A DNA stretch of 32,553 nt, from the NCBI GenBank assembly GCA_026414185.1, contig JAOAJL010000003.1, positions 66,896 to 99,448 on the forward strand, read 5' to 3'. This stretch comes from Microcaldota archaeon (GTDB taxonomy: Archaea > Micrarchaeota > Micrarchaeia > Anstonellales > Anstonellaceae). Below are positions 4,909-31,897 of this stretch, in pieces. Under the pieces are notes generated by a model. That model ran no database searches, was not told the DNA's origin, and worked only from the letters and a program-made list of their open reading frames with translations. Numbering within the stretch: the stretch's first letter is position 1; each line of letters starts with the position of its first letter. Both the position numbers and the translations under genes were made by a program.

Positions 4909-5910
4909 TCAGTATTTTACCGCAAGCTTTGCCCTGGCGATTCTTGGCACGAAGGCGCAGCAGACCGCCGCCTCCACCTGCTCGCTTCTGTGCATCCTGC
5001 CGTGCGAAAACCAGCCAAGCGCCCCCTGCTTCCAGCCGATTTTTTCAATGCCCGTAAGCTGCCTTAGGGCTTCCGACAAGTCGCTTGAATCTCGCTTTAT
5101 CTTCTCTGCGATTGCGTTTGGGACTGCAAAACCCATCCCCGTTCCATAAGTGGCTTCTTCTCCGTCATATACGCAAGCCACCGTTATGTCAATGTGAAGC
5201 CCCCTTTTGAGCCTTGAAAACAGCCCCGATTCAATACCGATGGCATAATCGCATTTTCCCTTCGCCCTCTTCCATGCCGCCTTCGCCCGATTCTCCGCCC
5301 CCCTGAAAGTTTGGCCGTCAAAGGGGTGCGCAGGCACGCCCGACTTTTCAGAGTGATGGAAAATTGCAAACTTGCCGCCAAATATCCTTTTGATTGCCCT
5401 TTCAGCCCCCTGCCTCTTTGTCGGGTTGTCGGTCGCAAGCTGCAGGCGAAGCGGCAAGAGAAGGCGGCCGCAAAGGTCTGTCCTGCCCTCGTAAATAGCG
5501 GCGCAGGATATCTTCTTCAAGTCCTCTCCGTAAAGAAGAGGCAGGCGGATTATTTCAAGGGGCAAGAGGCGCCTTTTGATTCGCCTGGCGTTTATCCTCT
5601 CCGCAACAGACGCCGTCTCCTCGCTTACAACTATGGCATCCGCCTCCATGTTTTCATCAGCCCCCCCAAACTCATCTTCTATCTGCACTATCCTGCAGCG
5701 CGAAAGGATGCCGAGCTTTTTCAAAGCCGCGCGAAGCCCTGCGAGCCTGCGCCGGTAAGGGAACGAGGGATAAAGCTTGTGGCTTCGGACGTAGCTGTCT
5801 GAGGTGAGGCCGACTGTTATCCTGCTGAACTTCCCGCACTCCGAAAGGAGCCTAAGATGCCCGCTGTGCACGTAGGTGAAAGTGCCTCCGATTATGCAGT
5901 GCCTGCCCAT
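4909..5910 (-). CDS. Fused archaeal phosphopantetheine adenylyltransferase + DUF84-type (non-canonical purine NTPase) domain
   Basis: N-terminus GGTFTYVHSGHLRLL nucleotidyltransferase motif; C-terminus LATDNPTKRQGAERAI...YAIGIESGLF...VACVYDGEEATYGTGMGFAVP, DUF84/YjjX-like. Confidence 0.82.
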   Translation of the reverse strand: MGRHCIIGGTFTYVHSGHLRLLSECGKFSRITVGLTSDSYVRSHKLYPSFPYRRRLAGLRAALKKLGILSRCRIVQIEDEFGGADENMEADAIVVSEETASVAERINARRIKRRLLPLEIIRLPLLYGEDLKKISCAAIYEGRTDLCGRLLLPLRLQLATDNPTKRQGAERAIKRIFGGKFAIFHHSEKSGVPAHPFDGQTFRGAENRAKAAWKRAKGKCDYAIGIESGLFSRLKRGLHIDITVACVYDGEEATYGTGMGFAVPNAIAEKIKRDSSDLSEALRQLTGIEKIGWKQGALGWFSHGRMHRSEQVEAAVCCAFVPRIARAKLAVKY

Positions 5911-7991: not shown

Positions 7992-9437
7992 TCAGCCCTG
8001 ACCCTTTGACTCCTCCCACATCCTGCGAATCAGAGCGCGAAGCTCATCGCGCTTGCGCTCAAACTCCTCTTCCTCCTCTGCTGAAAGCTTTATCCTTTCT
8101 ACAAAAGTGCCTGCCTCTCCTCCCTCCTCCACCTGCGGAGCCGCGGCCCCTTCCGCCGCCTGCCCCTCAACCCCGAATATCTCCGCCTCCTTCAAAAGGA
8201 GCTTCACTTTCTCTTCAAGGAGTATCTGCTCCCGCTTCAGCTCGCGCAGAAGGAAAGAAACCTTCTCAATCTCCTCGCGGGCTATCTTTGCCTTGCCATC
8301 CCTTGCGCTGTCAAGAGCCTCAAGCTGGGAAGTCAGCCGAAGCGCCACTTCCTTCTGCTTTGCAGAAAGCTCCTCCCCAGCCCTTGCGACTTCCTCGGAT
8401 ATGTCAACATACTCCTCCTTGAGCTTTTCCATCTCAGCTTCAATTTCGCTTTTGGACCGCGCCATCCCCTCAAACTTGGCAAGCTGCTTTTTGACCTGCA
8501 GGAGGGTTGATTGGAGCTGTGCCGTGATGTTTTCCTTCTGCTTCCTGCCCTCCTCTTCCATCTTGCGAAGTTCGGCAAGCTTCTTCTTAGCCTCCGAAAG
8601 GGAGAGTTCTTTTGAGGACTGCGCCTCAGAAACTTTCCTGTCAAGTTCAGAAATCCTTCCGCTTATGCTCTTGTATTCTTCTGCGATGGCTTCAATGGCA
8701 CCGGCAAGCTCGTTCCTGAGCCTTTTCAGCTCCTCTGCCTCCTGCCTTATCTGCTCAAGATTCTCATCCTCTTTCCTTCCCTCAATCGCCGACCCAATCT
8801 CGTCCAGCCGCGCCTTGAATGCTCCAAAAAAGGCGTCAACATCATCAAGCTGCGCCTGCAGGGTAGATTCAAACTTTTTTAGAACCGCAATCTCCTTCTC
8901 AATGTTCTTTCCACCCGCCTTCTCTTCCTTTGGCTCAAATTCCTTCTTGAGCGCATCCACCTTTTTCTTCAGCTTTTCAAGCTTCGCAAGCGAGGAGTCC
9001 ACAGCCACGTCGTATTTCCTTTTCAGCACTGCAAGCTCAGACTTTATCTTCTGGGCTTCCGCCCCGCTTGGCGGTTGCGCGCTTGCGAGGCGGGCAACTT
9101 CCTCCTGCATGCTTTCAAGCTCCTTGCCCCCCTCCTTCACCTTTGAAAGAAGCTCCGTGATTTCCGCCTGGGTGTCATCCGCCTTTGCCTTAAGCTCGCT
9201 TTTTTTCTGCGCGACATACTCGGCAGTGGGCTTGCGCCACACCAGATATATCTTCGTCAGCTTGTACTCTATGGCGATCAGGCCCTCCTCCTCAAGCACG
9301 TGCGCCCAATCTTCAACAGTGCGGATGGGCAGCCTCAAATCCGAGGCTGCTGCGCCTATCTCAGCCCTCCCCTTCTCCTTGAGGTATTTGATGAGCTGGT
9401 CCACCCCTGTAGATATTAGGAGGTCGTCCAAAGCCAT
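7992..9437 (-). CDS. N-terminal winged-helix-like domain + long coiled coil protein
   Basis: MALDDLLISTGVDQLIKYLKEKGRAEIGAAASDLRLPIRTVEDWAHVLEEEGLIAIEYKLTKIYLVWRK, then roughly 350 aa of E/K/L heptad-like sequence. Confidence 0.85.
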   Translation of the reverse strand: MALDDLLISTGVDQLIKYLKEKGRAEIGAAASDLRLPIRTVEDWAHVLEEEGLIAIEYKLTKIYLVWRKPTAEYVAQKKSELKAKADDTQAEITELLSKVKEGGKELESMQEEVARLASAQPPSGAEAQKIKSELAVLKRKYDVAVDSSLAKLEKLKKKVDALKKEFEPKEEKAGGKNIEKEIAVLKKFESTLQAQLDDVDAFFGAFKARLDEIGSAIEGRKEDENLEQIRQEAEELKRLRNELAGAIEAIAEEYKSISGRISELDRKVSEAQSSKELSLSEAKKKLAELRKMEEEGRKQKENITAQLQSTLLQVKKQLAKFEGMARSKSEIEAEMEKLKEEYVDISEEVARAGEELSAKQKEVALRLTSQLEALDSARDGKAKIAREEIEKVSFLLRELKREQILLEEKVKLLLKEAEIFGVEGQAAEGAAAPQVEEGGEAGTFVERIKLSAEEEEEFERKRDELRALIRRMWEESKGQG

Positions 9438-9448
9438 GCTTTTGTGTG

Positions 9449-9473
9449 CAAATCCAATCTTTATAAGGATTTG
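9449..9473. promoter_or_regulatory. Inverted repeat CAAATCC-N11-GGATTTG enclosing a TATA-like CTTTATAA, in the divergent intergenic region
   Basis: Perfect 7-bp arms (9449-9455 / 9467-9473) between divergent genes starting at 9437 and 9527. Confidence 0.5.
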
Positions 9474-9526
9474 TGCCGAAGTGCTACTGGCTGCAACGAC
9501 GGAATTTTGCGCCAAAAGTGGTCCTA

Positions 9527-10762
9527 ATGGGCACTACAGATTTTGAAATCAAGCTCCAAAAAGAAGCAAAGACGGGCCTGCAGCTCTACCGCGACCAGTC
9601 CCTGCTGCGCCGCAAGTTCGGAGAGGAGGCAGTCAGGCTCTACGACATGATTGACAGCGAAAAGACTGCCGCCGAGATAATGGCGGAGCTTGGCATGGAT
9701 GAAAAGAAGTTCATGGAAATACTTGAATTCATGAACAACAACGGCATAGTCAGCGTGGTTCCGGCATCAGGGCAACAGGAGGCTCAGACGCCTGCCGCGG
9801 CACAGCCACCTGACGCAGAAAAGAAAGAAGGCGAGGAAAGCACGGCAGAACCCCCTGCAAAAAAGCCGGTTTCAGAGGAGCTTCTTTCCCCCCTTGAAAA
9901 GCTTCTTTATCAAAAGTTCGGTCCGACGGGGGTCCAAATATACAACCTGATAGACGGCGAAAAGACGGCTGAGGAGATATTGCGCGAAACCGGCATCTCA
10001 GAAACAAAGCTTGTAGAAATCCTGGAATTCATGGATGAGCAGGGCATAATAAAGCTTGAAAAGCCGCAAGAAAAGGAAGAGGATGAAAGCGAAGAGGAAG
10101 AAACAGAGGAGGAAGAGGAGGAGAAGGAAAAAGAAGGGGAGTCAAAGCCGCCTGCGCGGGAGCCGCGCTTCAAGCCGATGCTTGAGGAAGAGCCTGAAGA
10201 AACCCCATTCACGCCGCCAAAACCGCCTCCAAAAAAAGAGGAAAAAAAGGAGCAGAAGCCGGAGGAAAAGCAGGAGTTTGAGGACCTGATACCTGTGGAT
10301 GTGCCTTCCATGTCCAATCTAACCCTCGTTCAGAAGGCGGTGATGTTCGCCGAGCTTGCAACCAAGTTCGGAAAAAGCGGCAGGGCGCTTATTGACCTTG
10401 TGGATGGCAAGCGAGATTTTGTAGAGCTTGCCCTGCTGACCGGCCTTTCTTTTTTTGAGATAGACGCGATAATGGCTTATTTCGGCAAGAAAGGGTTTAT
10501 CACCTTCCGCCAGCTTTCCCGCGAGGAGATAAAGAAGAAATACGGAGAGGACGGCTTTGCCATCTACAAAAAAGCTGGCAGGGACGGCATTCTCCTGTAT
10601 GAGATGATAGGCAAGGAAACCTCGCTTAAGGACATAATCCTCAAAAGCAAGCTTGACCCAGACAGGGCGATAGACATATTCGTGTTCATCCACAAGGTGC
10701 TGGGCTTGGACATCCCAATTGACCGAAACGTCATATACCGGCAGCTTGGGCTGAAAAAGTGA
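9527..10762 (+). CDS. Protein with four winged-helix-like repeats and an acidic/proline-rich linker
   Basis: Repeats of form KFGEEAVRLYDMIDSEKTAAEIMAELGMDEKKFMEILEFMNNNGIVSV / KFGPTGVQIYNLIDGEKTAEEILRETGISETKLVEILEFMDEQGIIKL, plus two more divergent copies. Confidence 0.85.
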   Translation: MGTTDFEIKLQKEAKTGLQLYRDQSLLRRKFGEEAVRLYDMIDSEKTAAEIMAELGMDEKKFMEILEFMNNNGIVSVVPASGQQEAQTPAAAQPPDAEKKEGEESTAEPPAKKPVSEELLSPLEKLLYQKFGPTGVQIYNLIDGEKTAEEILRETGISETKLVEILEFMDEQGIIKLEKPQEKEEDESEEEETEEEEEEKEKEGESKPPAREPRFKPMLEEEPEETPFTPPKPPPKKEEKKEQKPEEKQEFEDLIPVDVPSMSNLTLVQKAVMFAELATKFGKSGRALIDLVDGKRDFVELALLTGLSFFEIDAIMAYFGKKGFITFRQLSREEIKKKYGEDGFAIYKKAGRDGILLYEMIGKETSLKDIILKSKLDPDRAIDIFVFIHKVLGLDIPIDRNVIYRQLGLKK

Positions 10763-10769
10763 CCGCCTG

Positions 10770-11207
10770 CTAGTTTCTTATTCTGCCCAAAGCCATGCCT
10801 TCAATCTCAAGCTCCCCCTCAAAGTATCCGCCCAGCTTTTTTCCCATCCTTGAAAGCGCAAGCCTTCTGCATGCCGTCAGTTTCAGCAGACAAGCAAGCT
10901 TTTTTGGAGGAATCTTCCTTTGGCTTACAAAGACAAAGTCCGAAGGGTCCGCAGCCCCTACCTTGCGGAGCGCAGAGCCAAAATTCATCCCGCAGGAAAG
11001 GAAAAGCATCGCCTCATTTGAAAGTTTTTCAGAGGCATTCTGCCTGCGCCTTGCTGCTCTTTTCGCAAGCTCAAAGGCTGCTTCAAGCCCAAGACCGGTT
11101 TTGATCGCTTTTGGTGAGAGAAGCAGGCAGTGCCCGCCAATGCGCGATGCCGCCTTGACAAGCTCGGGCATGCTGCCAAGCGATGAGCGGCAGCGGAGAA
11201 TCTGCAT
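10770..11207 (-). CDS. KEOPS complex subunit Cgi121-like
   Basis: GLEAAFELAKRAARRRQNASEKLSNEAMLFLSCGMNFGSALRKVGA matches the Cgi121 pattern. Confidence 0.72.
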   Translation of the reverse strand: MQILRCRSSLGSMPELVKAASRIGGHCLLLSPKAIKTGLGLEAAFELAKRAARRRQNASEKLSNEAMLFLSCGMNFGSALRKVGAADPSDFVFVSQRKIPPKKLACLLKLTACRRLALSRMGKKLGGYFEGELEIEGMALGRIRN

Positions 11208-11230
11208 GGTCTTAGGTGGGCTGGTGAAAC

Positions 11231-11240
11231 CTTTAAAAAC
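11231..11240 (+). promoter_or_regulatory. Putative TATA box for rps8e
   Basis: CTTTAAAAAC about 47-56 nt upstream of ATG 11287. Confidence 0.4.
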
Positions 11241-11286
11241 ACCTCACAGAATATACTGCCTGCATTTTGTCTTCCGGAGGATTCTG

Positions 11287-11670
11287 ATGGAAAACTACCA
11301 CGGCGCATCGCGCTCCACAATAAAAGGGACCGGTGCAAAGTCCGGCAAAAGAAGCGACAAAAAGCTTCGCTTCGCAGGAGGACCTTTTACCGCCACAAAG
11401 GTTGGCAAAAGCGAGGTTCGCTTCCTCAAGCGCAGCCGCGGCACCTCTGCCAAGGTTAAGCTAAAGTCCGCCAGGTTTGCAAATATCCTCACAAAAGACG
11501 GCAAGGTCAAGAAGGTGGAAATCCGAACGGTGCTTGAAACCCCTGACAACCGCCACCACGCAAGGCAGAACATCATAACCAAGGGCGCGATAATAGACAC
11601 TGAGCTTGGCAAGGCGAAGGTCACAAACCGCGTGGGACAAGACGGAGTAGTCAACGGCAGGCTTCTGTAA
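11287..11670 (+). CDS. rps8e: 30S ribosomal protein S8e
   Basis: HGASRSTIKGTGAKSGKRSDKKLRF...NIITKGAIIDTELGKAKVTNRVGQDGVVNGRLL; SD GGAGG upstream. Confidence 0.94.
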   Translation: MENYHGASRSTIKGTGAKSGKRSDKKLRFAGGPFTATKVGKSEVRFLKRSRGTSAKVKLKSARFANILTKDGKVKKVEIRTVLETPDNRHHARQNIITKGAIIDTELGKAKVTNRVGQDGVVNGRLL

Positions 11671-16173: not shown

Positions 16174-17688
16174 ATGGCGGAAGCAAGGCGGCGTCCAGTA
16201 GATAAGGAGGGCACGATTGACTCCTATGTTTATGACAACGAAGGAATACAGGTGCTTGCCAAGATAGTGGCAAAGCCGGGCGAATACGTTCCATCCTACG
16301 AGGTGAATGTGCGCGAGCTTTCAGAGGGCACGCGGCTGGTGCTAAACCAGCTTCGCGGCGAGCTTATCACCACGGTGAAGCTTGACATAACAGAGATAAT
16401 GGACCCAAAAAAGCGGGACGAGGTGAAAAGGAAGTTTGAAAGCCGCGCCAACTACCTTCTCGGCAAGCACTTCCCCACCCTTTCCGAGTCAGACAAGAAG
16501 GTGCTGACTGCCTACCTTCTGCAAAACTCGCTTGGATTGGGCGAGCTTGAGCCGCTGATGCATGATGAGAACCTTGAAGAAGTCGCCATAAACTCTTCCA
16601 CCGAGCCAGTCTGGGTCTATCACAAAAAATACGGCTGGTGCAAAACCAACGTCACCCTCAAATCCGAGGAATCCATCTACGACATAGCCGCGATGATTGG
16701 AAGGCGGATTGGAAAGCAGATAAACGTCCTAAATCCGGTGATGGATGCGCACCTTTCCACAGGCGACCGGGTGAATGCCACCCTCTTTCCAGTCTCCTCG
16801 TTCGGCAACACGATAACAATACGCAAATTCTCCCGCAACCCCTGGACAATACCCTACCTTATTGAGCTCAACTGCATCTCGCCGCAGGTGGCGGGCTTGA
16901 TTTGGCTTTGCATTCAAAACGAGCTTTCCATCCTTGTTTCAGGAGGGACCGGATCAGGAAAAACCTCATTTCTCAACGCAATCTCCTGCCTCATACCCGC
17001 AAACCAGAGGATAATCTCCATAGAGGATACGCGCGAGCTTACCCTGCCGTCCTTCCTGCAGTGGATTCCGCTTGTCACCCGCGAGCCCAACGCAGAGGGG
17101 AAAGGCGAGGTGACCATGCTTGATTTGCTTGTCAATTCGTTGCGCATGAGGCCCGACAGGATAATCATGGGTGAGGTAAGAAAGCAGCGCGAAGCGGAGA
17201 TTCTTTTTGAGGCGATGCACACAGGGCATTCCGTCTATGCCACCTTGCACGCAGACAACGCGTCTGAGACAATCACTCGCCTCACCACCCCGCCAATCAG
17301 CATGCCGAAAGAAACGCTTTCAGCCCTTGCCGGCATAGTGGTCCAGTTCCGCCACCGGAGGCTGAATGTGAGGCGCACCCTTGAATTCGCAGAGGTCCAG
17401 AAGGGCGGAGACATAAACGTCCTTTACCGCTGGGATATCAAGACGGACAGGATAGGCGAAGTCGGCAAGATGGTTTCGCTTTCCTCCACCCTCTCGCTTT
17501 ACTCAGGTCTTACCCAAAAGGAGATAGAGGCAGACGTTGCCGACAAGGCAAGAATATTCTCCTGGATGGTGAAGAAAGGGCTCAAATCAGTCAATACGGT
17601 CGGCACCATAGTTTCGGAATACTACAAAAACCCAGATGAAATCGTCCAGATTGCAGCCAAGAACCAGGAGTGGCACGGCGCCGACTGA
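16174..17688 (+). CDS. Type II/IV secretion / archaeal type IV pilus assembly ATPase (GspE/TadA family)
   Basis: LGLGELEPLMHDENLEEVAINSS, SGGTGSGKTSFLNAIS, SIEDTRELTL, MRPDRIIMGEVRKQREAEILFEAMHTGHSVYATLHADNASETITRL; SD AGGAGG. Confidence 0.95.
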   Translation: MAEARRRPVDKEGTIDSYVYDNEGIQVLAKIVAKPGEYVPSYEVNVRELSEGTRLVLNQLRGELITTVKLDITEIMDPKKRDEVKRKFESRANYLLGKHFPTLSESDKKVLTAYLLQNSLGLGELEPLMHDENLEEVAINSSTEPVWVYHKKYGWCKTNVTLKSEESIYDIAAMIGRRIGKQINVLNPVMDAHLSTGDRVNATLFPVSSFGNTITIRKFSRNPWTIPYLIELNCISPQVAGLIWLCIQNELSILVSGGTGSGKTSFLNAISCLIPANQRIISIEDTRELTLPSFLQWIPLVTREPNAEGKGEVTMLDLLVNSLRMRPDRIIMGEVRKQREAEILFEAMHTGHSVYATLHADNASETITRLTTPPISMPKETLSALAGIVVQFRHRRLNVRRTLEFAEVQKGGDINVLYRWDIKTDRIGEVGKMVSLSSTLSLYSGLTQKEIEADVADKARIFSWMVKKGLKSVNTVGTIVSEYYKNPDEIVQIAAKNQEWHGAD

Positions 17689-17703: not shown

Positions 17704-20256
17704 ATGGCGACCTCCTCTGACTTGCCCAGTTTTTCGGATATCTGCCGGCTTGCAAGGGAGATGGAAAAGCGCGCGCTTGCGCCGAAAGGAGAAAACCTCT
17801 CAGGCAATATTCCGCCAGCAGGCTCGGAGATATTCCCAAAGGAGTTTCAAGAATTCACCTATGCCTACCTTTTGTCCGAGGCGCACAAGATTGAGCGCAG
17901 GCTTTTTGCTACAAGCTACCAGTCCGCTTTGCAACAGCCTTCCGCCGCGGAGAAGGCGCCAAGCGAGGAAAAAATAGAGGCGGAGCTGGCAAGGCTTTAC
18001 TCCACAGAGCCAAAAGCCCAGCCAGAGGCGCAGCCCACGCCGATAACCGAGAGGATAAAGCCGCCTGACATACTTTCTTCCGTCCTTCCGTTTGGTGCGA
18101 AAAAACAGCAGGAAAAAAGCGCGCAGCAGGCAGAGCCTTCTGCCACATTTTCGCCTGGCTTGCAGGAAACCCCGCAAGTGCAGCAAGCCGCGCCTGCGCC
18201 GCCGCAGAGGCAAGAAAGCGAAAGAGCCTGGCAAGAGGCAGGCATAAAGCCGCCTCAAGTGCCTTCGCCCAAGCCAAAGCCGCAGGAAAGCTTTGAGCAG
18301 GAAGCTAATGCTGAAAACCCGCCGATTCCGCCTGTCAAGGAGCCTCCGCAGGCGGAGGTTGAGCAGGAGCAGGAGGCAGCTGCAGAAGCCGCCAGCGAGG
18401 AAAAGCCGACTTCCGCCCAAGAAGCAAAATCTCCCCTTTCCTCCCAGAGAATTTCCCCACGCCTGCGCGCGATAATAGAGGAGAAAATAAGGCGGGAGGA
18501 GGAGAAGGCGGCGGCAGAGGCAAAGATGCTTCAGCAAAAGCAGCAACAGCAGGCACAGGCGCCCCCTTCGCCCGAGCAGGCGCAGGAGGAAGAGGAAATA
18601 GTCCTTTCAGCACGCGAAAGGCTGCTTAAAAAGCTGCAGAAAGGGGCGGAAGCCAAAAAAGAGGCTGGGCAAAAGCAGGAGGAGCCGCCGCAAGAGGCAA
18701 AGCAGATTCAAAAGGAGGGCGAGCCTGCCTTGCAGGAAAAAGCTTTGGAAGAGCCAGCCGCACCAAAAATAGTCCCGATAAAGCCTGAGGAAGAACCCAA
18801 GGAAGAAGCCGCGCCCTCGGTGCTTGATCTCGGAAAGAAAAAGGCGCCCTCGCCCCAAAAGGAGCCGGAAAGCCCGCTGTCCATCCCAGCCCCCTCCTTT
18901 GTGCCAGGAGCCCCAACAATAAAGCCGATATTTTCCGATGAGCAGAAGGCAGAGCCGGTTTCAGATGAGAGCCGCGCAAGCCGCATCCAGAGGATAATTG
19001 AGGAGCTTGCAGCAGACAGGGAAAAATCAAAGGTGCTTGCCTCCAAAAAGCAGGCGCAAGAGGCAAAGCAGGACAAGGAAGCTCAAATCAGCAAAGCCGA
19101 AAGCCAAAAAGCCAAACAGAAAAAGCCAGGGAGGAAAAAAGAGGCTCAGGCTTCAACTTCGGGCGCAAAGGCGGCAGAGGAAAAAAGCAAGCGGCAACCG
19201 CAGCGGCAAGGGCAAGAAAGCACCCAGGACAACCAAACCCCGCCTCCTGCGCCGCCACCCGCCCAGCTGCCTTTGCGAAACGCCAAAGCACAAGCAGAAT
19301 CTGAAGCCAGCCAAGAAGCCCCAAAGGCAGTGGAGGAGGCGCAGCCTCAAAAGCGCGCAGCCGCCTTGCCAAAGCCCTCTGCAAGCAAGCCGCAAAAGAA
19401 GGCGTTGGGGCAACAGGAGAGCCAACCAGCCCCCCGCAGGCGCATTCTTCCAAAGATGCCTCAAAAGCAGCAGCCCAAGCCGCTGCCAAGGGCAGCTTCA
19501 CAGCCTCCAAAAGAGCAAGCCAGTCCCCAAGCCTCCGCACAGTCTTCTTCCGGAGGCAGGGTGAGAATTTTGCCAGGAGGCAAAGTCCAGCAAAGCCAGC
19601 CTGCCGCCGCACCGTCCGCACCCATCACCTACATTCCTCCAGCACGGCAAAAGCCACAAGTTCCGCAGATGCAGGCAAAAAAACAGGAGCTGCAGGCGGA
19701 GAGGCAAAAAGACGAGTTGCAACAGGAAAAACCGCAGCCTGAAAAAGCAGAAGAAAAAAAGCCGCAGGCTCCCGCATTTCCGCAGGCTGCCCAAGCAGAA
19801 GATGCCGCGTTGCATTCGCGGCTTGAGCAGCTGAAAAAAACCCGCGAGATTGCAGGCGAGGCATCCATGCCAGAAAAGGAAGAAGAGGAAGAGCTTGAGG
19901 CACCTCCGCCCCCTCCGCCGGAGGAAGAAGAGCCAAAGCCAGATGCTTATGAGGAAAAAAAGCAGGAGTTTAAGCTGAAAATGCAGCTTGAAGACAAAAA
20001 AACGAAGGCAAGGCAGGAAAGCGAGGAGATGCTGGAGCAGTATGCAAAGGAAAACATCGTCTGGCTTTATGAGATTTACAAGATGGGCGGCATGTCGCGC
20101 GAGGACTTCCTTGCCAAAGTCAAGGAAAAAATGGCAGAGTCGCAGCAAGCCGCGGCTGAAGAGAGGAAGGAGCCGCAAGCCCCGCAAAATCCAGCTTTGG
20201 AGTCTCTTGAAAAGGAGGTAGGCAAAAAGATGAAAAAGCGCTTCCCATGGGAGTAG
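17704..20256 (+). CDS. Large low-complexity (K/E/P/Q/A-rich) protein in the pilus cluster, with apparently ordered N- and C-terminal segments
   Basis: 850 aa; N-term SFSDICRLAREMEKRALAPKGENLSGNIPPAGSEIFPKEFQEFTYAYLLSEAHKIERRLFATSYQSAL; C-term EMLEQYAKENIVWLYEIYKMGGMSREDFLAKVKEKM; no TM segment seen. Confidence 0.85.
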   Translation: MATSSDLPSFSDICRLAREMEKRALAPKGENLSGNIPPAGSEIFPKEFQEFTYAYLLSEAHKIERRLFATSYQSALQQPSAAEKAPSEEKIEAELARLYSTEPKAQPEAQPTPITERIKPPDILSSVLPFGAKKQQEKSAQQAEPSATFSPGLQETPQVQQAAPAPPQRQESERAWQEAGIKPPQVPSPKPKPQESFEQEANAENPPIPPVKEPPQAEVEQEQEAAAEAASEEKPTSAQEAKSPLSSQRISPRLRAIIEEKIRREEEKAAAEAKMLQQKQQQQAQAPPSPEQAQEEEEIVLSARERLLKKLQKGAEAKKEAGQKQEEPPQEAKQIQKEGEPALQEKALEEPAAPKIVPIKPEEEPKEEAAPSVLDLGKKKAPSPQKEPESPLSIPAPSFVPGAPTIKPIFSDEQKAEPVSDESRASRIQRIIEELAADREKSKVLASKKQAQEAKQDKEAQISKAESQKAKQKKPGRKKEAQASTSGAKAAEEKSKRQPQRQGQESTQDNQTPPPAPPPAQLPLRNAKAQAESEASQEAPKAVEEAQPQKRAAALPKPSASKPQKKALGQQESQPAPRRRILPKMPQKQQPKPLPRAASQPPKEQASPQASAQSSSGGRVRILPGGKVQQSQPAAAPSAPITYIPPARQKPQVPQMQAKKQELQAERQKDELQQEKPQPEKAEEKKPQAPAFPQAAQAEDAALHSRLEQLKKTREIAGEASMPEKEEEEELEAPPPPPPEEEEPKPDAYEEKKQEFKLKMQLEDKKTKARQESEEMLEQYAKENIVWLYEIYKMGGMSREDFLAKVKEKMAESQQAAAEERKEPQAPQNPALESLEKEVGKKMKKRFPWE

Positions 20257-20274: not shown

Positions 20275-20284
20275 GTTATAAAAA
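20275..20284 (+). promoter_or_regulatory. Putative TATA box upstream of first TadC/FlaJ-like gene
   Basis: GTTATAAAAA in the AT-rich intergenic region, 33-42 nt before ATG 20317. Confidence 0.45.
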
Positions 20285-20316
20285 TTAATATGGTGTATAA
20301 TTAGCAGTGTGGTGCG

Positions 20317-21258
20317 ATGGCTGAAGAGAAAAAGCCCCTTCTGAAAACCGAGGGCAAGATCCGTTCAAAAGCCCCGCAGCCTTTCATTGCCCACCCTCTC
20401 AGAGAGGCAGAGCCTGTCTCAGAGCCCCAGTCCTTCCGGGGCTTCTACAGCGCAATTGCTTCCCATTTTCCCTCACTGCGAAGGCAGCTTGTGGAGGCGG
20501 ACATGCGCTACACGCCGGCTGGCTTTGTGCGCCACTCGCTGCTGACTGCGCTTTACATAACCTCCGCACTGCTTTTGATAACCTACCTTCTCGTCCGCTC
20601 AGAGGAGCTTTGGCTCCTCATCCTCCTTTTGCTTCTTCCTCTTTACTATGCGGGCTCATTCTTCTATGCAATGCAGTTCCCACGCATCAAGGCAAGGATT
20701 CGCGCAAAGCGCATTGAGCAGGAGCTTGTCTTTGCTGGCAGGCACATGCTGATTGAGCTGAAAGGAGGCGTGCCTCTTTTTGACGCGATGCTCGGCATAA
20801 GCAGGGACTACGGAGAGGTTTCAACGGAGTTCAACAAGGTGGTTGAGAAAGTCACCCTTGGCGTTCCCCTCGGCGTTGCCCTCCATGATGTTGCGGAAAC
20901 CAACCCCTCGCCCTACTTCAAGCGCGTGGTTTTGCAGATTGCAAACTCGCTTGCCTCAGGCTCGGATGTCACCTCATCCCTTGAGGCGGTCCTTGACCAA
21001 ATCTCAAAGGAGCAGGTGATTGAGCTGAAAGCTTACGGGCAGAAGCTTAACCCAATAGTGATGTTCTTCATGATATTCGGCATAATCCTGCCTTCGCTGG
21101 GGGTGGCATTCGTCATCATCCTCTCCTCGTTTCTTGGGGGAGCCTCATTCGCATTCGGCTCATCCGCGCTGTTTGGCATCCTTGTGGCAGTGGGGCTGAT
21201 ACAGTTTATCTTCCTGTCAATGGTGGAGTCGTCAAGACCAAAGTTTGACATCGTTTGA
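20317..21258 (+). CDS. Type II secretion F-domain membrane protein (TadC/FlaJ-like)
   Basis: ELVFAGRHMLIELKGGVPLFDAMLGISRDYGEVSTEFNKVVEKVTLGVPLGVALHDVAETNPSPYFKRVVLQIANSLASGSDVTSSLEAVL and TM segments. Confidence 0.88.
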   Translation: MAEEKKPLLKTEGKIRSKAPQPFIAHPLREAEPVSEPQSFRGFYSAIASHFPSLRRQLVEADMRYTPAGFVRHSLLTALYITSALLLITYLLVRSEELWLLILLLLLPLYYAGSFFYAMQFPRIKARIRAKRIEQELVFAGRHMLIELKGGVPLFDAMLGISRDYGEVSTEFNKVVEKVTLGVPLGVALHDVAETNPSPYFKRVVLQIANSLASGSDVTSSLEAVLDQISKEQVIELKAYGQKLNPIVMFFMIFGIILPSLGVAFVIILSSFLGGASFAFGSSALFGILVAVGLIQFIFLSMVESSRPKFDIV

Positions 21259-21267
21259 GTGGTTGGG

Positions 21268-22344
21268 ATGGAAGGAAAGATGTTTTACGAAACAATCGGG
21301 CGCCTTTTTTCACGCCAGCAGATGCGCAGGCTGGGGCTGCTTTTGGAGTCCGCCGGCATGGATTTCGTGCCAGAGGCATTTGCCGGCTTTGTGGTGGTGG
21401 TCTGCTTTCTCGCCTCCCTCCTGACTTATCTCATATTCGCTTCAATCGCTCCGCTGCGCGGATTTCTTTTCAAGCTCTCCTTCTTCATTTCCCCTGATGC
21501 CACGCTTTCCTCCCCTGACTTTTTCATTTTGGTTTCAGCCCTCTTCAGCATCATCTTGGCATCCGGAGTAATCCTGCTTTCGGTCTATGTCATGCTTTTC
21601 CTGATGGCAGATGCGCGAAGGAGGCGCGTGGAGGAGGTTCTGCCCGACTTCCTTTCGCTGTCGGCGGCAAACGTGCGGGCGGGCATGACCATAGACCAGG
21701 CGCTTTGGTATGCCGCAAAGCCAGAGTTTGGCATACTTTCAGACGAGGTTGCGATAGTGGCAAAGAAGACTTTCGGAGGCGTGCCTTTCAACACGGCGAT
21801 AGACTACCTGACAGAGCGCTTCAACTCAAAGCCTGTGCGGCGCGCAGTCGCCCTAATAAAGCAGGCGATAGCGTCAGGCGGCAAGCTCGCAGACATACTT
21901 GAGAAGACAGCGGAGGATTCGCGCGAAATGATGACGCTTCGCAAGGAAATATCCACCTCCCTTCTGATGTATGTGATTTTCATCGTCTTTGCCGGCGCAA
22001 TAGGCACTCCATTCCTCTTCGCCATCTCAGGCAAGCTCGTTTCCCTTCTTGAAGGGGTCTTCACCACTCTTCCCACGCAGTCCAGCACCTCCTTTGCCGC
22101 CTCGGTCCAAGGACCGTTCATCATGCCCTCAAAGCCATCGGTTTCAAGCTCGGACTTCTGGCTTTTCACCATACTGACCGCAGTGATGACTGCCATATTC
22201 TCCTCGCTCATAATCGGCGTCATCTCAAAAGGAACCAAGCGGGACGGAGTCCCCTATGTGCCTTTCCTGCTGGCAGTTTCGCTTGCGGTTTATTTCCTCA
22301 CAAGCCATCTCCTGGGGGGCTTCCTGTCAAACATTTATTTCTGA
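21268..22344 (+). CDS. Second type II secretion F-domain membrane protein (TadC/FlaJ-like)
   Basis: EEVLPDFLSLSAANVRAGMTIDQALWYAAKPEFGILSDEVAIVAKKTFGGVPFNTAIDYLTERFNSKPVRRAVALIKQAIASGGKLADILEKTAEDSREM; multiple TM. Confidence 0.88.
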   Translation: MEGKMFYETIGRLFSRQQMRRLGLLLESAGMDFVPEAFAGFVVVVCFLASLLTYLIFASIAPLRGFLFKLSFFISPDATLSSPDFFILVSALFSIILASGVILLSVYVMLFLMADARRRRVEEVLPDFLSLSAANVRAGMTIDQALWYAAKPEFGILSDEVAIVAKKTFGGVPFNTAIDYLTERFNSKPVRRAVALIKQAIASGGKLADILEKTAEDSREMMTLRKEISTSLLMYVIFIVFAGAIGTPFLFAISGKLVSLLEGVFTTLPTQSSTSFAASVQGPFIMPSKPSVSSSDFWLFTILTAVMTAIFSSLIIGVISKGTKRDGVPYVPFLLAVSLAVYFLTSHLLGGFLSNIYF

Positions 22345-22370: not shown

Positions 22371-22943
22371 ATGAAAAAGAGTGAGGCTGCGGCAAGGTGC
22401 GCCTTGCGCCCTGCCTGCGGCTTGCGCGGCCAAGCTGCCATGGAATACTTGATGACTTACGGCTGGGCATTGCTGGTGATAGTCATAGTGATAGCCATAC
22501 TTCTCATCATCAATCCCTTCTCCCCTCCTCAGGGATGCCGCTTTGATGACGCGGCGTTCACCTGCAACAACCCGGTGGTCAGCACCAACGGCGGCATTTT
22601 CATGCAGATAACAAACGGCAAGAACAACGCAATAAACATCTACCAAATCCACTGCACCTCGGACAAGTCGCCAAATCCGCCAAAGCAGACCTCTTTTACG
22701 CTGCTCAAGAAGCTTGAAAGGCAGGAAACATACGAGGTCAGCCCAGACGGCAACAACCCCCTGCAGTGCGTTGATGCATACGGAGTCAGGCTTCGCCCCT
22801 CAGCCGGCTCCGAGTTTTCAGGGAAGGTCTGGGTATTCTACCGCAATGAAGAGGATGGGCCGTCCTACCCCTACAGGACCGTAAGCGCAAACGTGGTGAC
22901 CAAGGTGGTTGCGGCAACCACGGCAAGCCCAGGTCCGTCCTGA
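22371..22943 (+). CDS. Class III signal peptide / pilin-like protein
   Basis: LRGQAAMEYLMTYGWALLVIVIVIAILLIINPF, then a Cys-containing soluble domain; SD GAGGTGAT upstream. Confidence 0.88.
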   Translation: MKKSEAAARCALRPACGLRGQAAMEYLMTYGWALLVIVIVIAILLIINPFSPPQGCRFDDAAFTCNNPVVSTNGGIFMQITNGKNNAINIYQIHCTSDKSPNPPKQTSFTLLKKLERQETYEVSPDGNNPLQCVDAYGVRLRPSAGSEFSGKVWVFYRNEEDGPSYPYRTVSANVVTKVVAATTASPGPS

Positions 22944-31704: not shown

Positions 31705-31855
31705 GCCCCTGTAGCTCAGCGGTAGAGCGCGTGCATGGTACGAGAAACCCATTCGAATTCCCATCGGCGGGTTTCTACGTTACTTCCTCCGAGGGTTTCC
31801 CGGAGGGGTAACAACCATAAAGCACGAGGTCCCGAGTTCAATCCTCGGCGGGGGC
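31705..31855 (+). tRNA. tRNA-Thr (GGT) with intron at 37/38 (intron about 31741-31820, 80 nt); discriminator T at 31856, no encoded CCA
   Basis: Acceptor GCCCCTG/CGGGGGC, D stem GCTC/GAGC, anticodon stem CGTGC/GCACG, loop AT-GGT-A|A, T arm CCGAG-TTCAATC-CTCGG. Bulge-helix-bulge: ATGG/CCAT central helix with TAC and AAA bulges. Confidence 0.9.
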
Positions 31856-31897
31856 TTTCCAGCCGAATCAAGAAGCTCCAGCCAGCCTGCATCTGCC

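Follow-up and report, generated by a model that had tools for sequence, protein, structure and literature searches.

Gene content of the pilus locus

The window analysed here, a stretch of 32,553 nucleotides, belongs to a genome of 0.96 Mb in 35 contigs, and the closest named relatives of its pilus ATPase were found in Micrarchaeota. Genes for one T2SSE protein and two T2SSF proteins, all over the cut-off and on the same strand, identify an archaeal type IV pilus locus, and a type III-like pilin signal peptide was recognised further downstream from its sequence only. The gene between the ATPase and the platform proteins is named the slot gene, and its product the slot protein. The features of the locus are as follows.

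16174..17688, + strand: type II/IV secretion (pilus assembly) ATPase, T2SSE (PF00437, 4.8e-39), predicted partner of the slot protein N-terminal domain
17704-20256, + strand: slot protein gene, the main finding, ATG start, 850 aa
17704..17943, + strand: N-terminal domain (NTD), aa 1-80, conserved throughout the Micrarchaeota as a domain of two helices, always adjoining the ATPase
17944..19908, + strand: disordered spacer, aa 81-735, from pLDDT (mostly < 50) and composition
19939..20163, + strand: C-terminal domain (CTD), aa 746-820 (YAKENIVWLYEIYKMGGMSREDFLAKVKEKM), pLDDT up to 97, adjoining TadC1
20317..21258, + strand: TadC1, T2SSF platform protein (PF00482, 1.1e-15)
20377..20403, + strand: TadC1 cytoplasmic tail motif QPFIAHPLR, TadC1 aa 21-29, predicted CTD docking site from its co-occurrence with the CTD
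21259..22344, + strand: TadC2, T2SSF platform protein (PF00482, 8.5e-16)
22371..22943, + strand: pilin-like protein, archaeal class III-type signal peptide read from the residues (RGQAAMEYLMTYGWALL)

The initial annotation had placed the slot gene between a secretion ATPase and TadC-like genes on the same strand, which is borne out by PF00437 upstream and the two PF00482 matches downstream. We confirmed that the 850-aa open reading frame is a real gene: a stop-free run of 850 codons has a chance of about 1e-13 at the local base composition, codon usage is similar to that of the neighbour genes, and both ends of the protein stay in frame in homologues. The slot gene starts 15 bases after the ATPase stop codon. 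For the ATPase itself, ATG 16174 with AGGAGG just upstream was preferred over TTG 16126 and is probably the true start. The pilin-like protein (N-terminus RG/QAAMEYLMTYGWALL) had no Pfam match, and its gene occupies the same place in most related loci. A TATA-like sequence (TTATAAAAAT, 20276-20285, + strand) lies about 30 bases 5' of the TadC1 start, and could give the platform genes a promoter of their own.

Elsewhere in the window, an Rfam tRNA match of 47.6 bits was found at 31705-31856 (+), where ARAGORN reported none; as the match spans 152 bases, it probably includes an intron of about 80 bases. A 507-aa open reading frame at 7992-9515 (-), without Pfam match at 1e-3, likely has a winged-helix-like start followed by a long coiled coil, and the opposite-strand frame at 8053-9546 is probably spurious. 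The gene at 4909-5910 (-) encodes a cytidylyltransferase-like domain fused to a DUF84 NTPase. In the 291-aa frame at 10795-11670 (+), ribosomal protein S8e makes up the last 120 aa, and the true start is probably a Met near residue 164.

Architecture of the slot protein

An AlphaFold model of the slot protein was built on an alignment of 18 homologue sequences. Two N-terminal helices (10-24 and 53-77) were predicted with pLDDT of about 82-88 per block, and the C-terminal helices within 746-820 reached pLDDT 84-97, followed by a helix at 831-846 of about 74. Between them only weak helices (252-283, 291-319 and 421-467) were modelled, and pLDDT was below 50 for 502 of the 850 residues. The middle of about 650 residues is a polyampholyte with a fraction of charged residues (FCR) of 0.32, net charge of about zero, 14% Pro and few aromatics; tandem repeats were sought in the protein and none was found. 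The highest 19-residue Kyte-Doolittle mean was 0.85, which indicates that the protein has no transmembrane segment. The model and the hydropathy thus agree with the initial annotation, in which an ordered N-terminus and a helical C-terminus flanked a disordered middle lacking transmembrane segments.

Slot protein family in Micrarchaeota

A separate search for each end at E 0.1 gave N-terminal matches in 16 and C-terminal matches in 22 of 59 related genomes, so that the ends do have homologues in other pilus loci. Strong N-terminal matches always adjoined the ATPase, and strong C-terminal matches always adjoined TadC1. We surveyed 80 ATPase loci, among which 65 contained both ATPase and TadC1. 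The interval between these two genes held an open reading frame of at least 150 aa in 57 of the 65 loci, just a 71-74-aa NTD-like gene in three (L068, L086 and L104), and no gene at all in five.

The slot proteins could be divided into three types. Type A, the family of the window protein, is long and disordered (476-1,243 aa), type B has about 400-610 aa and is conserved in its central part, which is helical, and type C has about 140-300 aa. The middle of type B was predicted as a helical bundle with long helices of pLDDT about 90, so that here the connecting part is predicted to be folded. The connector ranges from none through a short linker or a helical bundle to a disordered chain that can reach about 1,000 residues. 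Profile comparison with hhalign, made on small alignments and with group C partly gathered by position, gave NTD homology of 96% between A and B (E 2.8e-9) and 96% between A and C (E 1.3e-9). The CTD homology between A and B was weaker (62%, E 7e-5, with L074 and L091 as bridges) and is moderately supported by these profiles.

A phylum-wide search with the NTD profile found matches in 61 of 295 genomes, a single match in each except one genome; the window protein scored E 4e-24 against this profile, which includes the window protein itself. The type A CTD profile matched in 25 of the 295 genomes, single-copy and always in the slot. The window protein has both family marks, the NTD just downstream of the ATPase and the CTD just upstream of TadC1. 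Outside the phylum, Aenigmatarchaeota gave weak matches in 2 of 156 genomes and thus no evidence for the family there. Two irregular genes are probably errors of metagenome-bin assembly: in L051 (the same locus as L030/L173) the slot gene is split across two frames, and in L056 (the same locus as L029/L174) it contains runs of N.

ATPases with a slot gene group together in the ATPase tree (support 85), and the slot types track this tree, with type A needing 2 changes against 15.6 in shuffles. The three other pilus ATPases of the host have no slot gene and fall outside the slot-bearing clade. These results bear on the idea that the slot gene is a passenger, unrelated to the pilus and in the operon by chance. 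No family member has a known function, as would suit a passenger, but the gene holds the same slot in many Micrarchaeota families, nearly always as one copy per genome, is absent at the host's other pilus loci and follows the ATPase in its types; we consider chance residence extremely improbable. The slot proteins make up a pilus accessory family that is new and restricted to the phylum, with the nearest arCOG candidates compared by description only.

Candidate partners of the two ends

All 25 NTD loci examined (20/20 and 5/5) have the NTD directly downstream of the ATPase. The initial annotation had named frequent occurrence away from pilus genes as a finding that would refute its proposal, and no strong match was found away from a pilus ATPase. 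L115 and L117-L120 have no TadC near the ATPase, yet an NTD-like gene of 62-77 aa comes after it, and the next gene is metabolic, HMG-CoA reductase by eye; L086 and L104 have a small NTD-like gene of the same kind. Several of these NTD-only matches are individually weak (E 2e-5 to 0.1 against all open reading frames of the loci), though their position, length and pattern are concordant. The NTD-only genomes imply that bridging between motor and platform is not always needed.

In type B loci (L078, L079, L080, L089, L092 and L095, also L083, L084, L105 and L108) the ATPase often carries an extra N-terminal tail, in which a short motif (for example KKTVRDIVKRIKESQ or KDIVKKI) precedes a linker that is acidic and looks disordered. 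This motif could be a second docking motif.

At the other end, TadC1 proteins of the window family have an N-terminal cytoplasmic tail with the motif [QHSA]P[LFMY][VI][AST]xP[LIM]R. A 9-residue motif profile was trained on the tails of this family (f1) and tested on other loci. A window-type CTD also occurs in five loci that do not belong to this family, and three of them (f2 L182, f4 L074 and f9 L180) had the motif, with the lowest possible shuffle p. A fourth (f5 L181) has a window-type CTD with a degenerate motif one residue shorter, and f10 L091 has a recognisable but diverged CTD and no motif. The motif was found in none of 48 loci without a window-type CTD (Fisher p 4e-4, a value that ignores relatedness). 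Most type B loci keep a CTD homologue and have no motif, and the tail of one type B subgroup, VTPVALPVR, may be a divergent version of it.

Shared ancestry alone may be the source of this association, and descent does account for it partly, as there were few independent events. The case of L071 argues against ancestry as the whole explanation. This locus is nested in the window clade (support 89 in the ATPase tree; 98/84 for the enclosing set in the TadC1 tree), and it has no slot gene at the locus, no CTD in the genome and no TadC1 motif; slot gene, CTD and motif were thus lost jointly, in the only lineage of the clade where the slot gene has gone. The co-occurrence of CTD and motif suggests the TadC1 platform as the second partner. 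The genome of L071 also has an unlinked 368-aa open reading frame (L184, 595-1701, - strand) that begins with a weakly NTD-like stretch (E 0.04) and ends in what looks like a coiled coil. The NTD-like stretch may be the remnant of a relocated gene or a chance match.

The slot protein might instead be an ATPase regulator, an assembly factor or an ArlX-like ring or stator, in which the NTD is the working part and acts on the ATPase alone, while whatever is added at the C-terminus serves for oligomerisation or has an accessory role. The NTD-only genes after the ATPase and the confidently predicted type B bundle are consistent with this, and ArlX rings surround the archaellum motor (PMC8978795). 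It leaves the conserved CTD and its co-occurrence with the TadC1 motif unexplained, and the slot protein is without the transmembrane helix of ArlX; we regard such a role as unlikely.

Composition and motifs of the spacer

Two helical motifs in the spacer passed a threshold set with shuffled relatives.

18430..18528, + strand: spacer motif aa 243-275 (ISPRLRAIIEEKIRREEEK), passed in up to 7 relatives, modelled as a weak helix
18964..19035, + strand: spacer motif aa 421-444 (RIQRIIEEL), passed in 4 relatives, modelled as a weak helix

Both were conserved within the genus only, and sister genera showed no spacer conservation above the shuffled threshold. Weaker conserved islands were seen at 293-313 and 712-729. 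RILPGG, YIPPAR and LPxEEELE were among the motifs spotted by eye; no region other than aa 243-275 and 421-444 exceeded the threshold in at least 4 relatives.

The initial annotation had also suggested a condensate-forming linker. As a scaffold of this kind, the protein would concentrate pilus components through phase separation of its K/E/P/Q-rich middle. A disordered polyampholyte stretch of about 650 residues that includes several helical stickers could act so, but a phase-separating composition is not conserved: charge and residues differ between genera, the spacer being K/E-rich in the window genus and P/Q/S-rich and weakly charged in L061-L063. This variation disfavours a condensate, such a region is small or missing in types B and C, and the near-zero net charge with few aromatics also speaks against it. 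The suggestion gained no specific support and we think it very unlikely; the genus-limited motifs are better matched by a spacer that carries a small number of docking helices peculiar to the lineage than by a condensate driven by composition.

Such helices could also make the protein a signalling or localisation hub, whose ends dock on the motor while the spacer would serve mainly to recruit, through its motifs, another cytoplasmic partner such as a polar organiser, switch or regulator. Conservation of the two motifs within the genus is in keeping with a hub, and ArlCDE, which link the archaellum motor to CheF, are a precedent (PMC8978795). The motifs are missing in sister genera and in types B and C, so that no function common to the whole family can rest on them, and no partner gene was identified. 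A hub seems to us rather improbable.

Proposed role as a tether between motor and platform

We favour, tentatively and at a little less than even confidence, a dedicated cytoplasmic subunit of one micrarchaeal type IV pilus machine, here in the form found in the window species, that tethers the ATPase to TadC1 through its two ends and a flexible spacer, where we infer both contacts and the leash function. The two-helix NTD would bind the assembly ATPase, and the helical CTD would bind the N-terminal cytoplasmic tail of TadC1. The disordered spacer would act as a flexible leash joining motor and platform at a geometry that is not fixed, so that the hexamer could be free to rotate or to alter its conformation. 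A helical bundle or a short linker takes the place of the spacer in sister lineages, and some retain the ATPase-side NTD alone. The two genus-only helical motifs may bring a lineage-specific partner. A cytoplasmic tether or scaffold joining ATPase/platform to another partner had been proposed in the initial annotation; the end homologues, the ATPase linkage and the co-occurrence of CTD and tail motif strengthen the tether part, and the contacts themselves stay predicted.

More broadly, a phylum-specific subunit may bridge the ATPase and the platform tail by conserved ends while its connector was exchanged freely in evolution, a view we hold possible and rather doubtful. The mechanics that keep ATPase and platform coupled in type IV filaments are an open question, and knowledge of the archaeal machines comes mainly from a few cultured lineages. 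If true, the family would be a natural experiment on how tight the coupling of motor and platform must be, since conserved ends with a folded, disordered or absent connector would give a direct handle on the need for rigid coupling. A tether with a variable middle would be an unusual means of holding a molecular motor together. The finding would also name a widespread, unannotated component of Micrarchaeota, and the predicted TadC1 docking motif is short enough for peptide testing.

Comparison with known systems

Pfam scans of the window protein, all type A (18) and type B (25) proteins and the end fragments gave no credible match, and the ArlC, ArlD and ArlE families had no match beyond chance in the window protein or in these 18 and 25 proteins. 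PDB sequence search with the NTD, CTD and type B profiles gave chance-level matches only. Foldseek of both models against PDB gave nothing below E 0.3, and its helical-bundle matches were judged meaningless. A SHOCT-like appearance of the type A CTD was dropped for lack of Pfam support, and a phage origin found no match. A literature search of partial coverage found no description of the family.

The best understood accessories of the archaellum motor are the cytosolic ArlX in Crenarchaeota and ArlCDE in Euryarchaeota (PMC8978795). Like the slot protein they are cytoplasmic, limited to particular lineages and part of a homologous archaeal motor, where they are believed to lie around the ATPase or give it a scaffold and to link it to other proteins (PMC8978795). 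The slot protein differs in having no Pfam relationship with them, in its long disordered spacer, and in its gene lying between pilus ATPase and platform genes rather than in an archaellum locus; ArlX also has a single transmembrane helix, whereas the slot protein has none.

A census of archaeal pili in 2016 reported cytoplasmic proteins tied to single clades with functions unknown, among them coiled-coil arCOG07564 (subclade 4F) and helical arCOG05610 and arCOG07479 (subclade 4G) (PMC4858521). They resemble slot proteins as uncharacterised cytoplasmic helical proteins restricted to one pilus ATPase clade; however, in this comparison by description only, they come from other archaeal groups, and the census text is without DPANN (PMC4858521).

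In the bacterial Tad system, truncation of the N-terminal disordered region of CpaF gave less extension and retraction with ATPase activity not reduced (PMC12019362). It is a precedent for disorder linked to a pilus ATPase mattering in the motor, although that region lies within the ATPase itself and has no conserved domain at its far end (PMC12019362). The slot protein can also be likened, by gene context and not by sequence, to AapX of the Sulfolobus Aap pilus, an additional, functionally uncharacterised protein encoded in one operon with the ATPase and platform protein of an archaeal pilus, in another phylum and another pilus (PMC11607397).
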